NCBI GenBank assembly: GCA_900696615.1
Contig: CAADGS010000052.1
Span: forward strand, 1-36,806
DNA length: 36,806 nucleotides
From: an uncultured beta proteobacterium
Lineage (GTDB): Bacteria; Pseudomonadota; Gammaproteobacteria; Burkholderiales; Nitrosomonadaceae
Direction of reading: 5' to 3'
Each line of letters opens with the position of its first letter. Position 1 is the first letter of the stretch. Under the pieces are notes generated by a model. It was not told where the DNA came from. It saw nothing but the letters and a program-made list of their open reading frames with translations, and did no database searches. The translations under genes were made by a program, and so were the position numbers. Positions 9,155 to 34,910 of this stretch are shown here, piece after piece.

Positions 9155-9646
9155 TTAGATAACTTCGGCTTTTTCGATCACGACATCTTCTAGAGGAACA
9201 TTTTGATGTCCGGCACAATCACCGGTTTTGACTTTCTTTATTTTATCGACCACATCCTGCCCTTCTACTACCTTACCGAACACACAGTAACCATAGCCTT
9301 GCGGTGATGAAGATTTATAATTGAGAAATCCATTGTTGGTTACATTGATGAAAAATTGTGCCGTGGCCGAATGAACATCGGCAGTTCTAGCCATAGCAAT
9401 GGTATAAGCTTCATTTTTCAGGCCATTTGCAGCTTCGTTCTGAATAGGCGAGAGAGTTTCTTTTTGCTTCATTCCAGGTTCAAATCCACCGCCCTGAATC
9501 ATGAAATCGTCGATAACACGATGAAACAACGTATTATCATAAAAACCGCTGGTTACGTAGTTAAGAAAATTTTGCACAGTTTCCGGTGCTTTTTCGCTAT
9601 CGAGTTCAAGTGTAATCGTACCAAAATTGGTTTGTAATTTAACCAT
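9155..9646 (-). CDS. ppiB: Peptidyl-prolyl cis-trans isomerase, cytoplasmic cyclophilin
   Basis: A cyclophilin that isomerises Xaa-Pro bonds. The 163-residue protein has no signal peptide. It has the family core [18 protein letters not shown] with the catalytic Arg of FHRV, plus [19 protein letters not shown] and [14 protein letters not shown]. It is a short bacterial (PpiB-type) cyclophilin. It is downstream of, and in the same direction as, an exported paralogue that starts at 10255 and ends 21 bases before this start; the two share long identical stretches, so a tandem duplication followed by gain or loss of a signal peptide is likely. Convergent with metZ. Confidence 0.96.
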
Positions 9647-9667: not shown

Positions 9668-10255
9668 TTATTTTTCAGCTACTGGGATTCTAAGCATATC
9701 TTCAATGACTACACTGGTTTTGGGTACATCACTAGCAAATGGACCTTTGGGACCGGTTGGCATTGCTGCAATTTTCTTAACCACGTCGATGCCGCTGATT
9801 ACTTTGCCAAATACCGTATAACCAAATCCGCTTTGACTGGGTGCTTTGTAGTTTAAGAAATCGTTATTTGCCACATTGATAAAGAATTGCGCTGTAGCAG
9901 AATGAGGGTCCGATGTGCGTGCCATTGCAATTGTTCCTGTTTCGTTTTTTAAACCATTAGCTGCTTCGTTTTGTATGGGAGAACGTGTTGGCTTCTGAGA
10001 AAAAGATGTATCGATACCACCGCCTTGGATCATGAAATCTGGTATAACTCTATGAAATATAGTATTTTTGTAAAATCCATCATCAACGTACTGCAAAAAA
10101 TTTCGTACTGTTATAGGTGCCTTATCAGGATAAAGCTCCAATACCACATTTCCTTGGTTTGTTTTTATTTCAACCTTTGTGTTTTCGGCTTGGGTGCTCA
10201 GACTTACAATAAACAAAAAAAGAAAAAAAAAGATTTGGCTGAATTGCTTGAGCAT
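9668..10255 (-). CDS. ppiA: Peptidyl-prolyl cis-trans isomerase, exported cyclophilin
   Basis: This is the periplasmic counterpart of the adjacent cyclophilin. I start it at 10255, where ATG is preceded by AGGA with 6 bases of spacing; a longer frame from 10309 would mask the signal peptide. The first ~25 residues are a signal peptide: short basic start, Phe/Leu-rich core, cleavage probably after STQA. The catalytic core [35 protein letters not shown] and [15 protein letters not shown] follow, with a C-terminal extension ([11 protein letters not shown]). The hydrophobic core is encoded by runs of seven and nine T (minus strand), sites prone to slippage. It was probably co-transcribed with ppiB. 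Confidence 0.94.
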
Positions 10256-10311
10256 ATGTAATCCTGCTGAGAACGTTCTATAGTGTGGATAAGCGTTTGT
10301 TTTTTGCATTA

Positions 10312-16757: not shown

Positions 16758-16785
16758 CTTGAAATTGAAATCTGTGACCCAATAT
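16758..16785 (+). promoter_or_regulatory. Sigma-32 (RpoH) heat-shock promoter of grpE-dnaK
   Basis: CTTGAA at 16758-16763 and CCCAATAT at 16778-16785 are separated by 14 bases, against the sigma-32 consensus CTTGAA-N13/15-CCCCATNT. The element ends 26 bases before the grpE ATG. No CIRCE inverted repeat (TTAGCACTC-N9-GAGTGCTAA) is visible, so the cluster appears to be RpoH-controlled rather than HrcA-controlled. Confidence 0.78.
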
Positions 16786-16811: not shown

Positions 16812-17405
16812 ATGCAGAGTTCAGAAAATTCAAGCAATTTAGAGTCAAATCAAGTAGAAACGTCACTTGCATCTGAGGAAACCAAAATTCCAGGCATAAC
16901 CAACGATGCAACAATTTCTACTGAATCGAAACAAGAACAATCATCTAACTTTGAGCATTTGTTGAAAGAAGCTGAAATTAAAGCGGCAGAACATCACGAT
17001 GCTTGGATGCGAGCAAAAGCCGAAACTGAAAATATCCGCAAGCGTGCCCAAACCGATGTGACGAATGCACATAAATATGCCATTGAGAATTTTGCGGGGG
17101 CATTATTGAGTGTGATGGATAGCTTGGATGCAGCACTAACAGTTGAAAATGCAAGCTTAGAGAGTTTTAAAAACGGTATGGAACTGACTCAGAAGCAATT
17201 AATCGGTGCTTTTGATAAATTTGGTATCGTGGTAATCAATCCTAAAGGAGAAAAATTTGATCCGCATCAACATCAAGCAATGTGCATGATCGATTCGGAA
17301 ATGGCTCCTAATACCGTGGTTGAAGTAATGCAGAAAGGCTACAAATTGCATGAGCGCGTAATTCGCCCTGCTCTCGTATCAGTTTCAAAAGCAAAAGACT
17401 CTTGA
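16812..17405 (+). CDS. grpE: Nucleotide exchange factor GrpE
   Basis: GrpE releases ADP from DnaK and also serves as a thermosensor. The 197-residue protein has a disordered, Ser/Glu-rich N-terminal ~45 residues, then a long coiled-coil helix ([31 protein letters not shown]) and the C-terminal beta domain ([38 protein letters not shown]). A strong ribosome-binding site, AGGAGG, precedes ATG 16812. The heat-shock promoter immediately upstream and dnaK 69 bases downstream fix the assignment. Confidence 0.98.
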
Positions 17406-17474: not shown

Positions 17475-19409
17475 ATGGCAAAAATTATTGGTATCGATTT
17501 AGGTACCACCAACTCTTGTGTAGCCGTAATGGAAAGCGGGAAACCGAAGGTTATTGAAAACTCCGAAGGTGCTCGCACCACTCCTTCAATTGTCGCATAC
17601 ACTGAAGAAGGAGAAATTTTAGTGGGTGCTTCGGCGAAGCGTCAGGCGATAACTAATCCCAAAAACACCTTGTTTGCGGTGAAACGCTTAATTGGGCGCC
17701 GTTTCGACGAAGATATGGTGCAAAAAGACATTAAAATGGTGCCATACAGTATCATCAGAGCCGATAATAATGACGCATGGGTAGAGGTTCGTGGCAAAAA
17801 AATTGCGCCGCCTGAAGTTTCTGCACAAGTATTGCTGAAAATGAAGAAAACCGCGGAAGATTATCTGGGTGAAACAGTTAGCGAAGCGGTCATTACGGTA
17901 CCTGCTTATTTTAACGATTCACAACGACAGGCAACTAAAGATGCGGGACGAATCGCCGGCCTGGAGGTAAAACGTATCATTAATGAACCCACTGCTGCTG
18001 CACTTGCTTTTGGTCTGGATAAGAAAGAAGGCGACCGAAAAATTGCGGTATATGATTTGGGCGGTGGGACTTTTGATATTTCAATTATCGAAATTGCTGA
18101 AATTGAAGGTGAACATCAATTTGAAGTCTTGGCGACTAATGGCGATACTTTCCTCGGGGGTGAAGATTTTGATTCACGGGTGATTGAGTATTTGGTCGAT
18201 GAATTTAAGAAAGAGACCGGTATCGATCTGAAAAAAGATATGCTGGCATTGCAGCGTCTGAAAGACGCTGCGGAAAAAACTAAAATTGAATTATCGTCCA
18301 GCCAGCAAACCGAAGTTAACTTACCGTATATCACAGCAGATGCTTCGGGTCCAAAACACTTGGCTGTCAAAATTACCCGTGCCAAATTGGAAAGCCTTGT
18401 GGAAGAGCTAATCGAACGCACGGTTGGGCCTTGCCGTACTGCTATGAAGGATGCAGGCTTGAGTGCATCAGATATTGATGATGTGATTCTGGTTGGCGGT
18501 CAAACACGCATGCCCAAAGTTCAAGACAAGGTTAAGGAAATATTTGGTAAAGAACCGCGCAAAGATGTGAATCCCGATGAAGCAGTTGCTGTCGGTGCGG
18601 CCATTCAAGGCGGTGTTTTACAAGGTGACGTAAAAGATGTTTTGCTGTTGGATGTAACACCTTTATCGCTCGGTATTGAAACACTGGGTGGAGTAATGAC
18701 CAAGCTGATTCAAAAAAACACTACGATCCCAACGAAGGCGCAGCAGGTGTTTTCTACTGCAGAAGATAATCAGACAGCAGTGACTATCCATGTTTTGCAA
18801 GGTGAACGCGAGATGGCTTCGGGCAACAAAAGCTTGGGGCAATTCAATTTAAGTGATATTCCACCTTCACCACGCGGAATGCCGCAAATCGAAGTAACAT
18901 TTGATATTGATGCGAATGGTATTTTACACGTATCGGCTAAAGACAAAGCCACAGGCAAAGAAAACAAAATCAAGATTCAGGCTAGTTCAGGTTTGTCGGA
19001 TGATGAGATTGAACGGATGGTAAAAGATGCCGAAGCACATGCAGAAGAGGATCATAAAGCACTTGAATTGGTTTCTAGTCGCAATCAATGTGATGCCATG
19101 ATTCATTCTGTTAAGAAATCCTTGAAAGAATACGGAGATCAGCTCGACGATGCGGAAAAAGCAAAAATTGAAACTGCTTTAAAAGAAGCCGAGGATGTGC
19201 TTAAGACTGATAAAAAAGAGGATATTGATGCAAAAACACAAGCTTTAACCGAAGCTTCGCATAAATTGGCTGAAAAAATGTATCAACAAAAAGAGCAAAC
19301 GGATCAATCGACGCAGCCAGGTGCCGAGGCTGCTGCTGGTAAAAGTGAAAAACCGGTTGAAGGTGAAGTTGTTGATGCGGAATTTGAAGAAGTCAAAAAT
19401 AAAAAATAA
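17475..19409 (+). CDS. dnaK: Chaperone DnaK (Hsp70)
   Basis: DnaK binds exposed hydrophobic segments of client proteins in an ATP-driven cycle with DnaJ and GrpE. It is 644 residues. The nucleotide-binding domain opens with [14 protein letters not shown] (residues 4-17) and contains [13 protein letters not shown] near 195 and the hinge region [16 protein letters not shown] near 390. The substrate-binding domain and lid follow, and the protein ends in the conserved acidic tail [21 protein letters not shown] precedes the ATG. Codon use is cleaner and GC slightly higher than in flanking genes, consistent with high expression. A long hairpin follows the stop. Confidence 0.99.
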
Positions 19410-19429
19410 CGATTGTCGCGGTACAAGCT

Positions 19430-19497
19430 GAACGCAGAGGCGTGAAATGAAAACTTCGGTATTTCTTTCTACGTCCTCTGCGTTCTTTTGTTATTTT
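19430..19497 (+). terminator. Long UUCG-capped intrinsic terminator after dnaK
   Basis: A perfect 11-bp stem (GAACGCAGAGG 19430-19440 with CCTCTGCGTTC 19475-19485) continues inward through a one-base bulge and two mismatches to a C(TTCG)G tetraloop at 19454-19459. It is followed by TTTTGTTATTTT. The length and symmetry exceed an ordinary terminator, and a REP-like palindrome serving as terminator is an alternative. Confidence 0.75.
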
Positions 19498-19498
19498 C

Positions 19499-19507
19499 TG
19501 TTATAAT
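19499..19507 (+). promoter_or_regulatory. Extended -10 promoter candidate for dnaJ
   Basis: TGTTATAAT is a perfect extended -10 element, located 14 bases after the terminator stem and 41 bases before the dnaJ ATG. It would allow dnaJ transcription independent of read-through from dnaK. There is no good -35 hexamer. Sequence match only. Confidence 0.5.
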
Positions 19508-19548
19508 ACATGATGTTATGAATTTTATTGCGCTGGTAGAAAATTAAT

Positions 19549-20658
19549 ATGAATAAGCGTGACTATTATGAAGTCCTTGGTGTTGGCCGTGATGCTGATG
19601 AAAATACGATTAAGAAAGCCTACCGTAGGTTAGCTATGAAATATCACCCTGATCGCAATGCGGGTGATGTTAAATCGGAGGAAATGTTCAAAGAAGCCAA
19701 GGAAGCTTATGAAGTGCTGACCGATGCAAATAAACGTGCCATCTACGACCAGTTGGGTCATGCCGGTATTAATGGCAATGCGGCAGGCGGAGCTGGTGCA
19801 CAAGGATTTAGCGATGCATTTAGTGACATCTTCGGAGATATTTTTGGCACTCGTAGCGGACGATCGAATATGCATCGCGGCTCTGATTTACGTTATAACC
19901 TGGAAATATCTTTAGAGCAAGCAGCCCAAGGCACTGAAACAAAAATTCGCATTCCTACCACGGAAAAATGTGATACCTGTCATGGTAATGGTGCCAAGCC
20001 AGGCACTTCTCCTAAAACTTGTCCAACTTGTAATGGTCATGGACAAGTGAGAATGCAGCAGGGTTTTTTCTCAATCCAGCAAACTTGCCCCAAGTGTCAA
20101 GGCAATGGAAAAATCATCACACAACCTTGTACGGTTTGTCATGGTACCGGGCGTGTCAAACAACACAAGACCCTGAATGTAAAAATTCCAGTTGGGGTGG
20201 ATGACGGTGATCGCATTCGCATTTCCGGTGAAGGTGAAGCCGGTCTGAACGGTGGACCGCCGGGTGATTTATATGTGGTTGTGCATTTGTCAGCCCATTC
20301 TGTTTTTCGCCGTGAAGGTGATCATCTGCATTGTGAAATTCCCATCAGTTTCAGTGTGGCGGCGTTAGGAGGAGAAATTGAGGTACCTACGTTGGAAGGG
20401 CATGCAAAGATTAAAGTTCCTGCAGAAACGCAAACAGGTAAGATTTTCCGTTTACGAGGGAAGGGAATTAAAGGTGTTCGTAGTCATGACAAAGGTGATT
20501 TACTTTGCCATGTTATTGTGGAAACACCGGTTAAATTAACAGCTCGCCAGAAAGAGTTATTAGAAGAGTTAGAAGCAATTAGTCTTAAAGATGGTTCCCG
20601 ACACAGCCCTAGAGCAAAATCGTGGATGGATAAAGCCCGTGAGTTTTTTTCGGAATAA
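19549..20658 (+). CDS. dnaJ: Chaperone DnaJ (Hsp40)
   Basis: DnaJ delivers clients to DnaK and stimulates its ATPase. The 369-residue protein has the J domain (residues 1-70, HPD in KYHPDRN), a Gly-rich linker (residues 73-105, [20 protein letters not shown]), and the zinc domain with four CxxCxGxG repeats ([32 protein letters not shown]). The C-terminal beta domains follow ([18 protein letters not shown]). This is a type I DnaJ. The gene is separated from dnaK by the hairpin and a promoter candidate, so it may be uncoupled from the grpE-dnaK transcript. Confidence 0.98.
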
Positions 20659-20831: not shown

Positions 20832-21185
20832 TTATTTTCCCGTTGCCTCATGCATGTGCCGTAGTGCTTCTGTTACATGCTTAGTTGCCACATCGGCATG
20901 ATCTTGTTTGGCGTGCGCAATTGCTTCGTCTAAATGTTTAATTGATTCGGCTATGTACTCCTTCTGGGTTTCAGTAAGCTCTTTTTCCGCTTCTTTGGCA
21001 TGAATGAGGCTTTCTTGTGCATGCTCCAGTAATACCTTAGTGTGTCCAGATTTTCCGTGTGTCTGTGCTGATTCAGCGTGTTTAATGGCTTCAGTGGTAT
21101 GCGGATTTATATTTGCAGCGATTGCTTGCGAAGCGAAAATTAATGCTAAAAAATTCAAAATAGTAATAACCTGTGATAGTTTCAT
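20832..21185 (-). CDS. smbP: Small periplasmic His-rich metal-binding protein (SmbP-like)
   Basis: The 117-residue precursor has a signal peptide (residues 1-23, MKLSQVITILNFLALIF, cleavage probably after AIAA). The mature helical protein of about 93 residues carries 12 His, in repeats of the type HAxxxxxHxKxGH and EHAxESLxHAKEAE. This matches SmbP of Nitrosomonas europaea, a periplasmic protein that binds several Cu and other divalent ions. ATG 21185 is supported by GGGG 7 bases upstream; a longer frame from 21254 would hide the signal peptide. The likely role is copper buffering for copper enzymes such as AMO, inferred from the N. europaea protein. A hairpin with a T tract lies in the leader. 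Confidence 0.9.
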   Translation of the reverse strand: MKLSQVITILNFLALIFASQAIAANINPHTTEAIKHAESAQTHGKSGHTKVLLEHAQESLIHAKEAEKELTETQKEYIAESIKHLDEAIAHAKQDHADVATKHVTEALRHMHEATGK

Positions 21186-21208
21186 ATTGTTACCCCGTTC
21201 AGTTAATG

Positions 21209-21234
21209 AATAAAAAGAATCGCTAAACAGCGAT
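21209..21234 (-). promoter_or_regulatory. Terminator-like hairpin in the smbP leader
   Basis: On the minus strand, ATCGCT-GTTT-AGCGAT (21234 to 21219) forms a perfect 6-bp stem with a 4-base loop, followed at once by TCTTTTTATT. It lies 34-49 bases before the smbP ATG, too close for a complete promoter and leader to fit between comfortably. This suggests a transcription attenuator. Confidence 0.5.
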
Positions 21235-21474
21235 GAGGTTTGTATTGAATTCAATGCGGATTTTCATTTATTGATATTTAGATACGTAATATCATTATCG
21301 ATTTGTGAACGAATACCCGATAAAGTTCCCATTATCTAAAATAAGTTCGTTAGATTTTTTTAAGCAAACTCCAACCATACAAATCGAAAGGAATTTCTCA
21401 ATTATCGAAACTCTGAACTCGGCTAGTTTAGTTTGAAATTTACTAGATTCCTTGTCATAGCGAAATAGCGGCTG

Positions 21475-34014: not shown

Positions 34015-34485
34015 TTAATGTGTTTTTTTAGACCAGGGAAATCTGAAGCTACTGGAATGACTCTTTGGCGTATTATTTTCTTGTGAAGTTGCAATATCCG
34101 GAACTGTTTTATCTGCGTGATTAGTCATTGTTTGTTGCATGGGTGCTTGAGTCGTGTTTATTTTGTTCAACAACTGGTTCAACTGCTGCGCCAATTGATT
34201 TGCTGCATCAATACTGATAGCCAATCTACACGACATTTTTGCACTAACGGTACCAACGGTTTTTTCACCTGATTTGGCTATTTGATTTAATGCATGTATG
34301 GTATGAGGATCAAGAAAGCCGAAATCCACGATAACAGCGCCTTGTCCAATCTGAACAGATGTGAAATTAGAATAGATAGGTTGTCCTGTATGTTCGCCTT
34401 GTAGCATACTCACTCTAACTTGCATCGCAGAGGGTGGTACGGTGTTGCTTTCACTATCAGTCGATGTAACGTTTTCTTCTACCAT
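34015..34485 (-). CDS. Small DUF3467-like protein, longer paralogue with C-terminal tail
   Basis: A 156-residue protein of unknown function. The core (residues ~22-107) reads QGEHTGQPIYSNF, GAVIVDFGFLDPHTIHALNQ and MSCRLAISIDAANQLAQQLN, a pattern resembling DUF3467 (Y-x-N-F ... V-x-x-D-F-G ... helix). Here it is followed by a Gln/Thr/Ser-rich, probably disordered tail ending FPWSKKTH. There is no signal peptide or membrane segment. A clear GAGGAAAC ribosome-binding site precedes ATG 34485. The gene lies 104 bases after its shorter paralogue, whose core is largely identical. Function cannot be assigned. Confidence 0.82.
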   Translation of the reverse strand: MVEENVTSTDSESNTVPPSAMQVRVSMLQGEHTGQPIYSNFTSVQIGQGAVIVDFGFLDPHTIHALNQIAKSGEKTVGTVSAKMSCRLAISIDAANQLAQQLNQLLNKINTTQAPMQQTMTNHADKTVPDIATSQENNTPKSHSSSFRFPWSKKTH

Positions 34486-34589: not shown

Positions 34590-34910
34590 TTACGTTTTTT
34601 TATGAAACAGTTGGTTTAATTGTTGCGCTAAGCTATTTGCTGCTTCGACGCTGATAGCCAATCGGCATGACATTCTAGCCCCCACAGTCTCGGGAATTTT
34701 TTCACCAGAACGAGCAAGGCGATTTACCGCATGAATAGTTTGTGGATCAAGAAAACCAAAATCTACAATAATCACACCTTGCCCGCTTTGTACCGATGTA
34801 AAGTTGGAGTAGAGCGGCTGTCCGGTATGTTCGCCTTGCTGCATTCTGATATTAATTTGTGTGGATTGAGATTTGGTAACGTCTGCTTGTAATTCATTAT
34901 TATCTGCCAT
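34590..34910 (-). CDS. Small DUF3467-like protein, shorter paralogue
   Basis: A 106-residue protein comprising an ~18-residue polar start and the same core as the next gene: QGEHTGQPLYSNFTSVQ, GVIIVDFGFLDPQTIHAVN, MSCRLAISVEAANSLAQQLN. It ends right after the core, without the tail of its paralogue. The ribosome-binding site is GGAGA, 6 bases before ATG 34910. The two genes form a tandem pair, probably one transcription unit, with a repeat-containing upstream region (34963-35045). I recognise the core only as DUF3467-like; the function is unknown. Confidence 0.84.
   Translation of the reverse strand: MADNNELQADVTKSQSTQINIRMQQGEHTGQPLYSNFTSVQSGQGVIIVDFGFLDPQTIHAVNRLARSGEKIPETVGARMSCRLAISVEAANSLAQQLNQLFHKKT

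Follow-up and report, generated by a model that had tools for sequence, protein, structure and literature searches.

A family-wide hairpin between dnaK and dnaJ of Nitrosomonadaceae with features of a leaky terminator

Introduction

How bacteria hold DnaK in excess of DnaJ is a question on which an RNA signal between the two genes would bear. In the available part of one report, a potential hairpin is described as common to the dnaK-dnaJ gap of Sodalis glossinidius and Escherichia coli, and for Sodalis a sigma32 site is placed upstream of dnaK and neither a sigma32 nor a sigma70 site in the gap (PMC6887450). When the Salmonella cytoplasm is starved of Mg, dnaK mRNA reportedly stands ~2.5-fold above dnaJ mRNA; according to the accessible portion of that study, PhoP makes the dnaJ mRNA less stable, the dnaK-dnaJ gap encodes the sRNA tpke11, and the authors see no intrinsic terminator there (PMC12077118). 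In E. coli, RNase III affects the heat induction of dnaK along with RpoH, a result which, as far as the available text goes, does not extend to the hairpin itself (PMC9032294). A search of the open-licence literature (titles and abstract beginnings) returned no report of a Nitrosomonas dnaK-dnaJ hairpin or transcript map. Here we ask what kind of signal occupies this gap in a Nitrosomonas heat-shock operon.

Results

A stable hairpin lies in the dnaK-dnaJ gap

The window, i.e. the whole stretch of 36,806 nucleotides analysed, was assigned to Nitrosomonas because its DnaJ shares 92% identity with the DnaJ of a named Nitrosomonas MAG and because its genome groups in one genus with genomes G001-G036. 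It carries a grpE-dnaK-dnaJ operon with the following features:

16758-16785, plus strand: sigma32-like promoter upstream of grpE (CTTGAAA, 13 nt, CCCAATAT), matching 13 of 14 consensus positions
16812-17405, plus strand: grpE (Pfam GrpE, 1.9e-51)
17475-19409, plus strand: dnaK (Pfam HSP70, 2.3e-269)
19430-19440, plus strand: outer 5' arm of the hairpin, GAACGCAGAGG, with the family-wide core CGCAG(AG) (sequence, RNA fold, family comparison)
19441-19474, plus strand: inner stem plus loop; sequence variable, pairing mostly retained in relatives; the C(UUCG)G at 19454-19459 is private
19475-19485, plus strand: outer 3' arm, CCTCTGCGTTC (sequence, RNA fold, family comparison)
19486-19498, plus strand: U-rich tract with interruptions, TTTTGTTATTTTC, where release would presumably occur (sequence; T conservation across the family)
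19499-19507, plus strand: TGTTATAAT, extended -10-like, of doubtful function (two in the window; 2/63 genus gaps)
19549-20658, plus strand: dnaJ (Pfam DnaJ_C, 5.3e-53; DnaJ, 4.1e-27; DnaJ_CXXCXGXG, 2.2e-18)

With dnaK ending at 19409 and dnaJ starting at 19549, the gap measures 139 nt, and dnaK lies directly upstream of dnaJ in 41/41 genus loci and in 56/56 further loci. The sigma32-type reading of 16758-16785 uses a 14-position consensus. Sites of this type upstream of grpE in four named Nitrosomonas contigs match it at 13, 12, 12 and 12 of the 14 positions, and the window's site is likely the main promoter of the operon.

The two outer arms, GAACGCAGAGG and CCTCTGCGTTC, form a perfect 11-bp complement around an imperfect inner stem. 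The predicted RNA fold of the hairpin comprises 24 pairs at -29.3 kcal/mol (z -6.05), and none of 200 dinucleotide shuffles was equally stable. A preliminary description of the locus had noted a stem of ~23 bp with a C(UUCG)G cap and a U-rich tract behind it, which the fold bears out, with the cap at 19454-19459 and the tail TTTTGTTATTTTC at 19486-19498. Taken by itself, the inner stem is weak (z -1.1). The hairpin has the stable, G+C-rich stem-loop of an intrinsic terminator, kept across the family. In a 64-nt fold scan of both strands it was, on the plus and the minus strand, the sole entry among the top 25 outside the listed ORFs, the other 23 lying entirely within them. Since the reverse strand of the hairpin folds too (z -7.28), the strand had to be settled by comparison. 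A terminator scan of the window did not return the hairpin site, probably because that scan seeks an uninterrupted stem with a short loop. Likewise, no Rfam family matched the hairpin at its gathering cut-off; at E ≤ 5, positions 19350-19600 gave only a snoRNA and a microRNA family, both far under cut-off. Among 97 Nitrosomonadaceae gaps, CTTCGG forms the loop in the window only, and its other holders (L276, L277 and L285) carry it elsewhere in the gap. Judged across these gaps, only the window genome has C(UUCG)G as a cap, and this is no conserved part of the hairpin.

The hairpin is bound to a single locus

The arms had also been likened to a dispersed palindrome, the hairpin then being a REP-like element recruited as a terminator, and a genome-wide search for the 11-bp arms had been proposed as a check. 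In the assembly (92.5% complete), GAACGCAGAGG occurs without mismatch solely at the two hairpin arms themselves; with up to one mismatch it is found at 16 places, versus 10 for a reversed control word. Across 61 Nitrosomonas genomes, the pattern CGCAGAG-(18 to 48 nt)-CTCTGCG is present in 48, once in 44 of them and more than once in four (G033, G036, G071 and G075), and the reversed control pattern is found in five. A covariance model of the hairpin built from 34 gap sequences matched 60/61 of these genomes at E ≤ 0.01, at one place each when both strands of one spot are taken as one place; with 82 candidates per genome scored under strict filters, weak distant copies could escape this search. 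Extended to the family (40 candidates per genome scored), the model matched 109/125 genomes in 4/4 genera at E ≤ 0.01, with at most two matches per genome among the matches listed. In all 43 hit-centred loci, at least 80% of the covariance match falls within the dnaK-dnaJ gap. The 16 misses comprise three genomes (G106, G091 and G145; 72-84% complete) without a dnaJ at E ≤ 1e-120 and 13 with one. Eleven of the latter reach -33.5 kcal/mol or below when the first 110 gap nucleotides are folded. The remaining two are L285, at -18.3 and with an insert interrupting its hairpin, and L296, at -18.7 and without a strong hairpin.

CGCAGAG occurs 24 times in 263,874 bases (window included), against 18.2 expected; the arm words are not over-represented, and a dispersed uptake-type word was rejected on this ground. 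The hairpin shares with REP/BIME elements its palindromic arms and intergenic position, but such elements have many copies per genome, whereas this one sits at one place per genome in a fixed locus. The pattern and covariance-model searches led us to reject the REP-like origin, which we regard as extremely improbable; L285 has a transposon-like insert with inverted repeats, which went into the hairpin and is no copy of it. The element is bound to one locus and is not a repeat element.

The L285 insert (genome G108) spans gap bases 46-214, its inverted-repeat ends being identical at 22/23 nt; it lies inside the hairpin, with remnants of both outer arms on either side. Separately, in L142 (genome G050), repeated CGCGGAGGA-like units make up a very strong hairpin in the dnaK-dnaJ gap, closer in look to the dispersed-repeat type than the Nitrosomonas element is.

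A nearly invariant stem base encloses a covarying inner stem

The 97 gaps read were 41 genus gaps and 56 further ones, with at least three cases of one gap counted twice (as a named contig and as a genome). Among the further loci, the 43 hit-centred ones are 23 that make up all genus matches outside the first set and 20 picked from 28 in other genera, and 13 are the covariance model's misses; proportions in other genera are therefore not unbiased. Both arms were found with at most three mismatches in total in 91/97 gaps and with none in 61; in the seven gaps with three mismatches, a chance pair is possible. Six gaps have no arms (L284, L288, L290, L292, L295 and L296), five of which nevertheless fold strongly. 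Of 82 distinct sequences, 80, 80, 73, 80 and 80 carry C-G, G-C, C-G, A-T and G-C, respectively, at the five core pairs. By contrast with this outer core CGCAG/CTGCG, which is nearly invariant across the sequences compared, the inner stem varies with compensating changes.

Pair changes were counted in an alignment of 34 of the 41 sequences with 13 consensus pairs, in which 92.3% of cells are paired, versus 88.2% in shuffles. Changes on both sides of a pair occupy 29 cells, compared with 11.2 in shuffles (0/500 as high) and 8-20 with slid partners, and they affect seven pairs, compared with 4.6 in shuffles (10/500 as high). For the three inner pairs, both sides have changed in 8, 7 and 7 sequences, and pairing is absent in 10, 9 and 4. 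The genus-wide MAFFT alignment was poor in the inner stem, and a second count of pair changes therefore used ungapped sets of sequences with the same length, a few of whose rows are mis-registered diverged gaps. At an interior length of 34 nt (35 distinct sequences), 7/14 pairs have both-sided changes, of which the inner stem accounts for only three; sets with interiors of 33, 35, 32, 30 and 28 nt give 4/11, 10/21, 5/19, 10/19 and 6/19 pairs. The interiors alone fold at z ≤ -2.0 in 34/41 gaps. In the outer ten pairs, G.T cells (71) exceed A.C cells (14), as would be expected if the plus-strand RNA is what matters, though in part because the T positions on the 3' side are conserved anyway. Exact 7-bp arms were observed in 61/63 gaps versus 25.6 in shuffles, a background so high that this test was used only together with controls.

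The U tract is conserved apart from pairing

Downstream of CTCTGCG, T occupies positions +1 to +4 in 69, 71, 73 and 73 of 84 distinct sequences and positions +9 to +11 in 57, 64 and 61, against a background of 29% T (+13 to +24). The mirror base of +4 on the 5' side is nearly evenly distributed (T 22, C 19, G 17, A 26), and T stands at +4 in 35 of the 39 sequences where pairing is impossible. Its conservation even there argues that the sense-strand U tract is selected for its own sake. Such a tract speaks more for a termination or pausing signal than for a hairpin used in processing alone; an RNA chaperone binding there would also be compatible with it.

One feature of an intrinsic terminator is an uninterrupted tract of ~7-8 U right after the stem. 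In the genus gaps the longest T run is four in 42/62 scored gaps and never exceeds six; the window tail, TTTTGTTATTTTC, has 6 T in the first 8 positions after CTCTGCG, most relatives having 4 or 5. As the tract falls short of the standard, we call the hairpin terminator-like and leaky rather than a standard terminator.

The hairpin differs from other terminator positions of Nitrosomonas

For comparison, 62 scored of 63 Nitrosomonas dnaK-dnaJ gaps were set beside 28 regions downstream of groEL and 27 scored of 29 downstream of rplS. The groEL regions come from 28/30 loci, L210 and L211 (divergent, 72%) being left out; hairpins downstream of dnaJ were too varied for use as a terminator control. 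Median stem length is 21 bp in the dnaK-dnaJ gaps versus 15 bp downstream of groEL and 17 bp downstream of rplS, and the median longest T run, read from count distributions, is 4 versus 7 and 3. In the negative control, the 75 nt before dnaK, the stem is 10 bp and the 56-nt fold has a median of -4.3 kcal/mol; 1/26 of these regions contains an exact 7-bp arm pair. Counting T in the richest 8-nt window gives a median of 5 for the gaps, the rplS regions and the grpE-dnaK control alike, and of 7 for the groEL regions. T richness of the tail thus equals that of the rplS and grpE-dnaK controls, so what argues for the U tract is its conservation position by position.

The groEL downstream terminators share with the dnaK-dnaJ hairpin a G+C-rich stem followed by a sense-strand U tract. 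The dnaK-dnaJ hairpin differs in its longer stem, its shorter, interrupted U tract, its position within an operon and its far more conserved arms: the most frequent exact 7-mer arm pair shared between loci is found in 48/63 dnaK-dnaJ gaps, versus 8/28 groEL and 6/29 rplS regions. On these two controls, the arm conservation is unusual for a terminator position in Nitrosomonas. Among the groEL terminators themselves (L182-L209), the arm AACAGAC is common to 8/28 and the rest differ.

Uncoupling by the hairpin had been thought to set the locus apart from the usual dnaKJ operon, a view that the wider comparison does not support. In other Betaproteobacteria, 68/74 gaps of at most 260 nt fold at z ≤ -2 (25 shuffles each), albeit with different arms (top common pair 6/84), and the available part of the Sodalis report likewise predicts an extended hairpin at the same position, also in E. 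coli, with no sigma32 site in the gap (PMC6887450). The Nitrosomonas locus, too, has an extended hairpin in a heat-shock dnaK-dnaJ gap and no sigma32 site there. The likeness is one of description, to a hairpin that is itself a prediction, and grpE is located elsewhere in those species, unlike in the Nitrosomonas operon (PMC6887450, as far as available).

Promoter-like sequences in the gap are not conserved

The best sigma32-like matches in the 63 gaps are at the level of mononucleotide shuffles, and a sigma32 promoter within the gap was rejected for this reason. Just past the hairpin, the perfect extended -10 reported in the preliminary description is indeed present, TGTTATAAT at 19499-19507. 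The window has two copies of TGNTATAAT, the motif at these positions, where 2.33 are expected, so that its presence alone means little. A perfect extended -10 is found in 2/63 genus gaps, versus 0.3 from shuffles, namely in the window and in G005, its nearest relative (DnaJ 99% identical), and is not conserved across orthologous gaps; nor did a promoter scan of the window that requires a -35 as well list TGTTATAAT. A lineage-specific dnaJ promoter at this site is possible, if otherwise unsupported. The claim that a dnaJ promoter fully uncouples the two genes is not supported, given this distribution and the sigma32-like site upstream of grpE.

Discussion

A leaky terminator within the operon is the best explanation

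Sequence comparison establishes the structure of the hairpin, its single place per genome, its position, its conservation and its sense-strand U tract. What it does is best explained, with about an even chance of being right, by a leaky intrinsic terminator, or attenuator, within the heat-shock operon grpE-dnaK-dnaJ. Transcription would start at the sigma32-type promoter upstream of grpE and proceed through dnaK, and the long stem would fold on leaving the polymerase. The short, interrupted U tract would then free only part of the polymerases, the remainder proceeding into dnaJ, and the hairpin remaining at the 3' end may also shield the dnaK mRNA. The outcome would be less dnaJ mRNA than dnaK mRNA. 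We infer that transcription ends at the hairpin, that it does so only in part, and that the DnaK:DnaJ ratio is affected. The tract is short and interrupted in most species, and termination could be negligible. Of the original proposal that the hairpin stops transcription after dnaK, a stable, selected hairpin with a U-rich tail remains as a plausible stop, but full uncoupling of the two genes is unsupported.

A tentative alternative, to which we give less than an even chance, is a processing or stability element: the operon would be read through, RNase III (in the long stem) or RNase E (beside it) would cut near the hairpin, and the hairpin would guard the 3' end of dnaK, leaving the dnaJ portion to faster decay. 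The long stem (median 21 bp) suits this reading, as does the different stability of the dnaK and dnaJ parts of the mRNA reported for Salmonella in cytoplasmic Mg starvation (PMC12077118, available part). Because T richness of the tail is not above that of the rplS and grpE-dnaK controls, the leaky-terminator reading is slightly weakened and processing slightly raised. T is nonetheless conserved where pairing does not need it, a pattern that a site for processing alone would not obviously explain, and our literature searches found no RNase data for the Nitrosomonas group. The Salmonella gap, an 85-nt dnaK-dnaJ stretch, is likewise discussed as the place where expression of the two genes parts; by analogy, a PhoP-dependent loss of dnaJ mRNA stability that needs no terminator would count against a leaky terminator. 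No intrinsic terminator is seen there in the text available, whereas the Nitrosomonas hairpin has a U tract after its stem (PMC12077118).

The conserved stem base raises a further alternative, which we consider unlikely: a protein or small RNA may recognise the core CGCAG/CTGCG and thereby turn termination or decay on or off, for instance in response to heat. The family-wide form of this proposal, in which a core recognised by protein, small RNA or temperature would control the passage of polymerase or mRNA from dnaK into dnaJ throughout Nitrosomonadaceae, is equally unlikely; if true, the core would make the hairpin a regulated attenuator of the DnaK:DnaJ ratio. The excess of one exact arm pair over the groEL and rplS regions speaks for recognition, but it was gauged at two control positions only, and constrained pairs beside a U tract may look invariant since both sides must change together. 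Five of the six gaps that lack the arms still fold strongly, and Rfam gave no family at its cut-off. Slightly less probable still is the model of the preliminary description, an efficient terminator after dnaK with a separate sigma70 promoter, TGTTATAAT, for dnaJ. It can draw on the T-rich window tail and on a perfect motif, shared with G005 and above the shuffle level, that leaves space for a ~35-nt leader; the motif is, however, absent from the other 61/63 gaps, at chance frequency in the window and missing from the two-hexamer promoter scan.

Read as a leaky terminator, the hairpin is a known kind of feature in a new, family-wide instance, a case backed by pair changes of dnaK and dnaJ being separated by an RNA signal within one operon. 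Its standout feature is a stem-base conservation that exceeds that at two other terminator positions of Nitrosomonas.

Other features of the window

Convergent to dnaJ, on the minus strand at 20832-21254, lies a gene for a small metal-binding protein (SMBP, Pfam 2.1e-28). Two adjoining minus-strand genes for cyclophilin-type peptidyl-prolyl isomerases (9155-9646 and 9668-10309) have in common a 62-nt direct repeat of 76% identity. A 265-nt repeat of 71% identity is common to two further adjoining minus-strand ORFs, one at 34015-34485 with a weak DUF3467 match, under its cut-off, and one at 34590-34910 with no family match.
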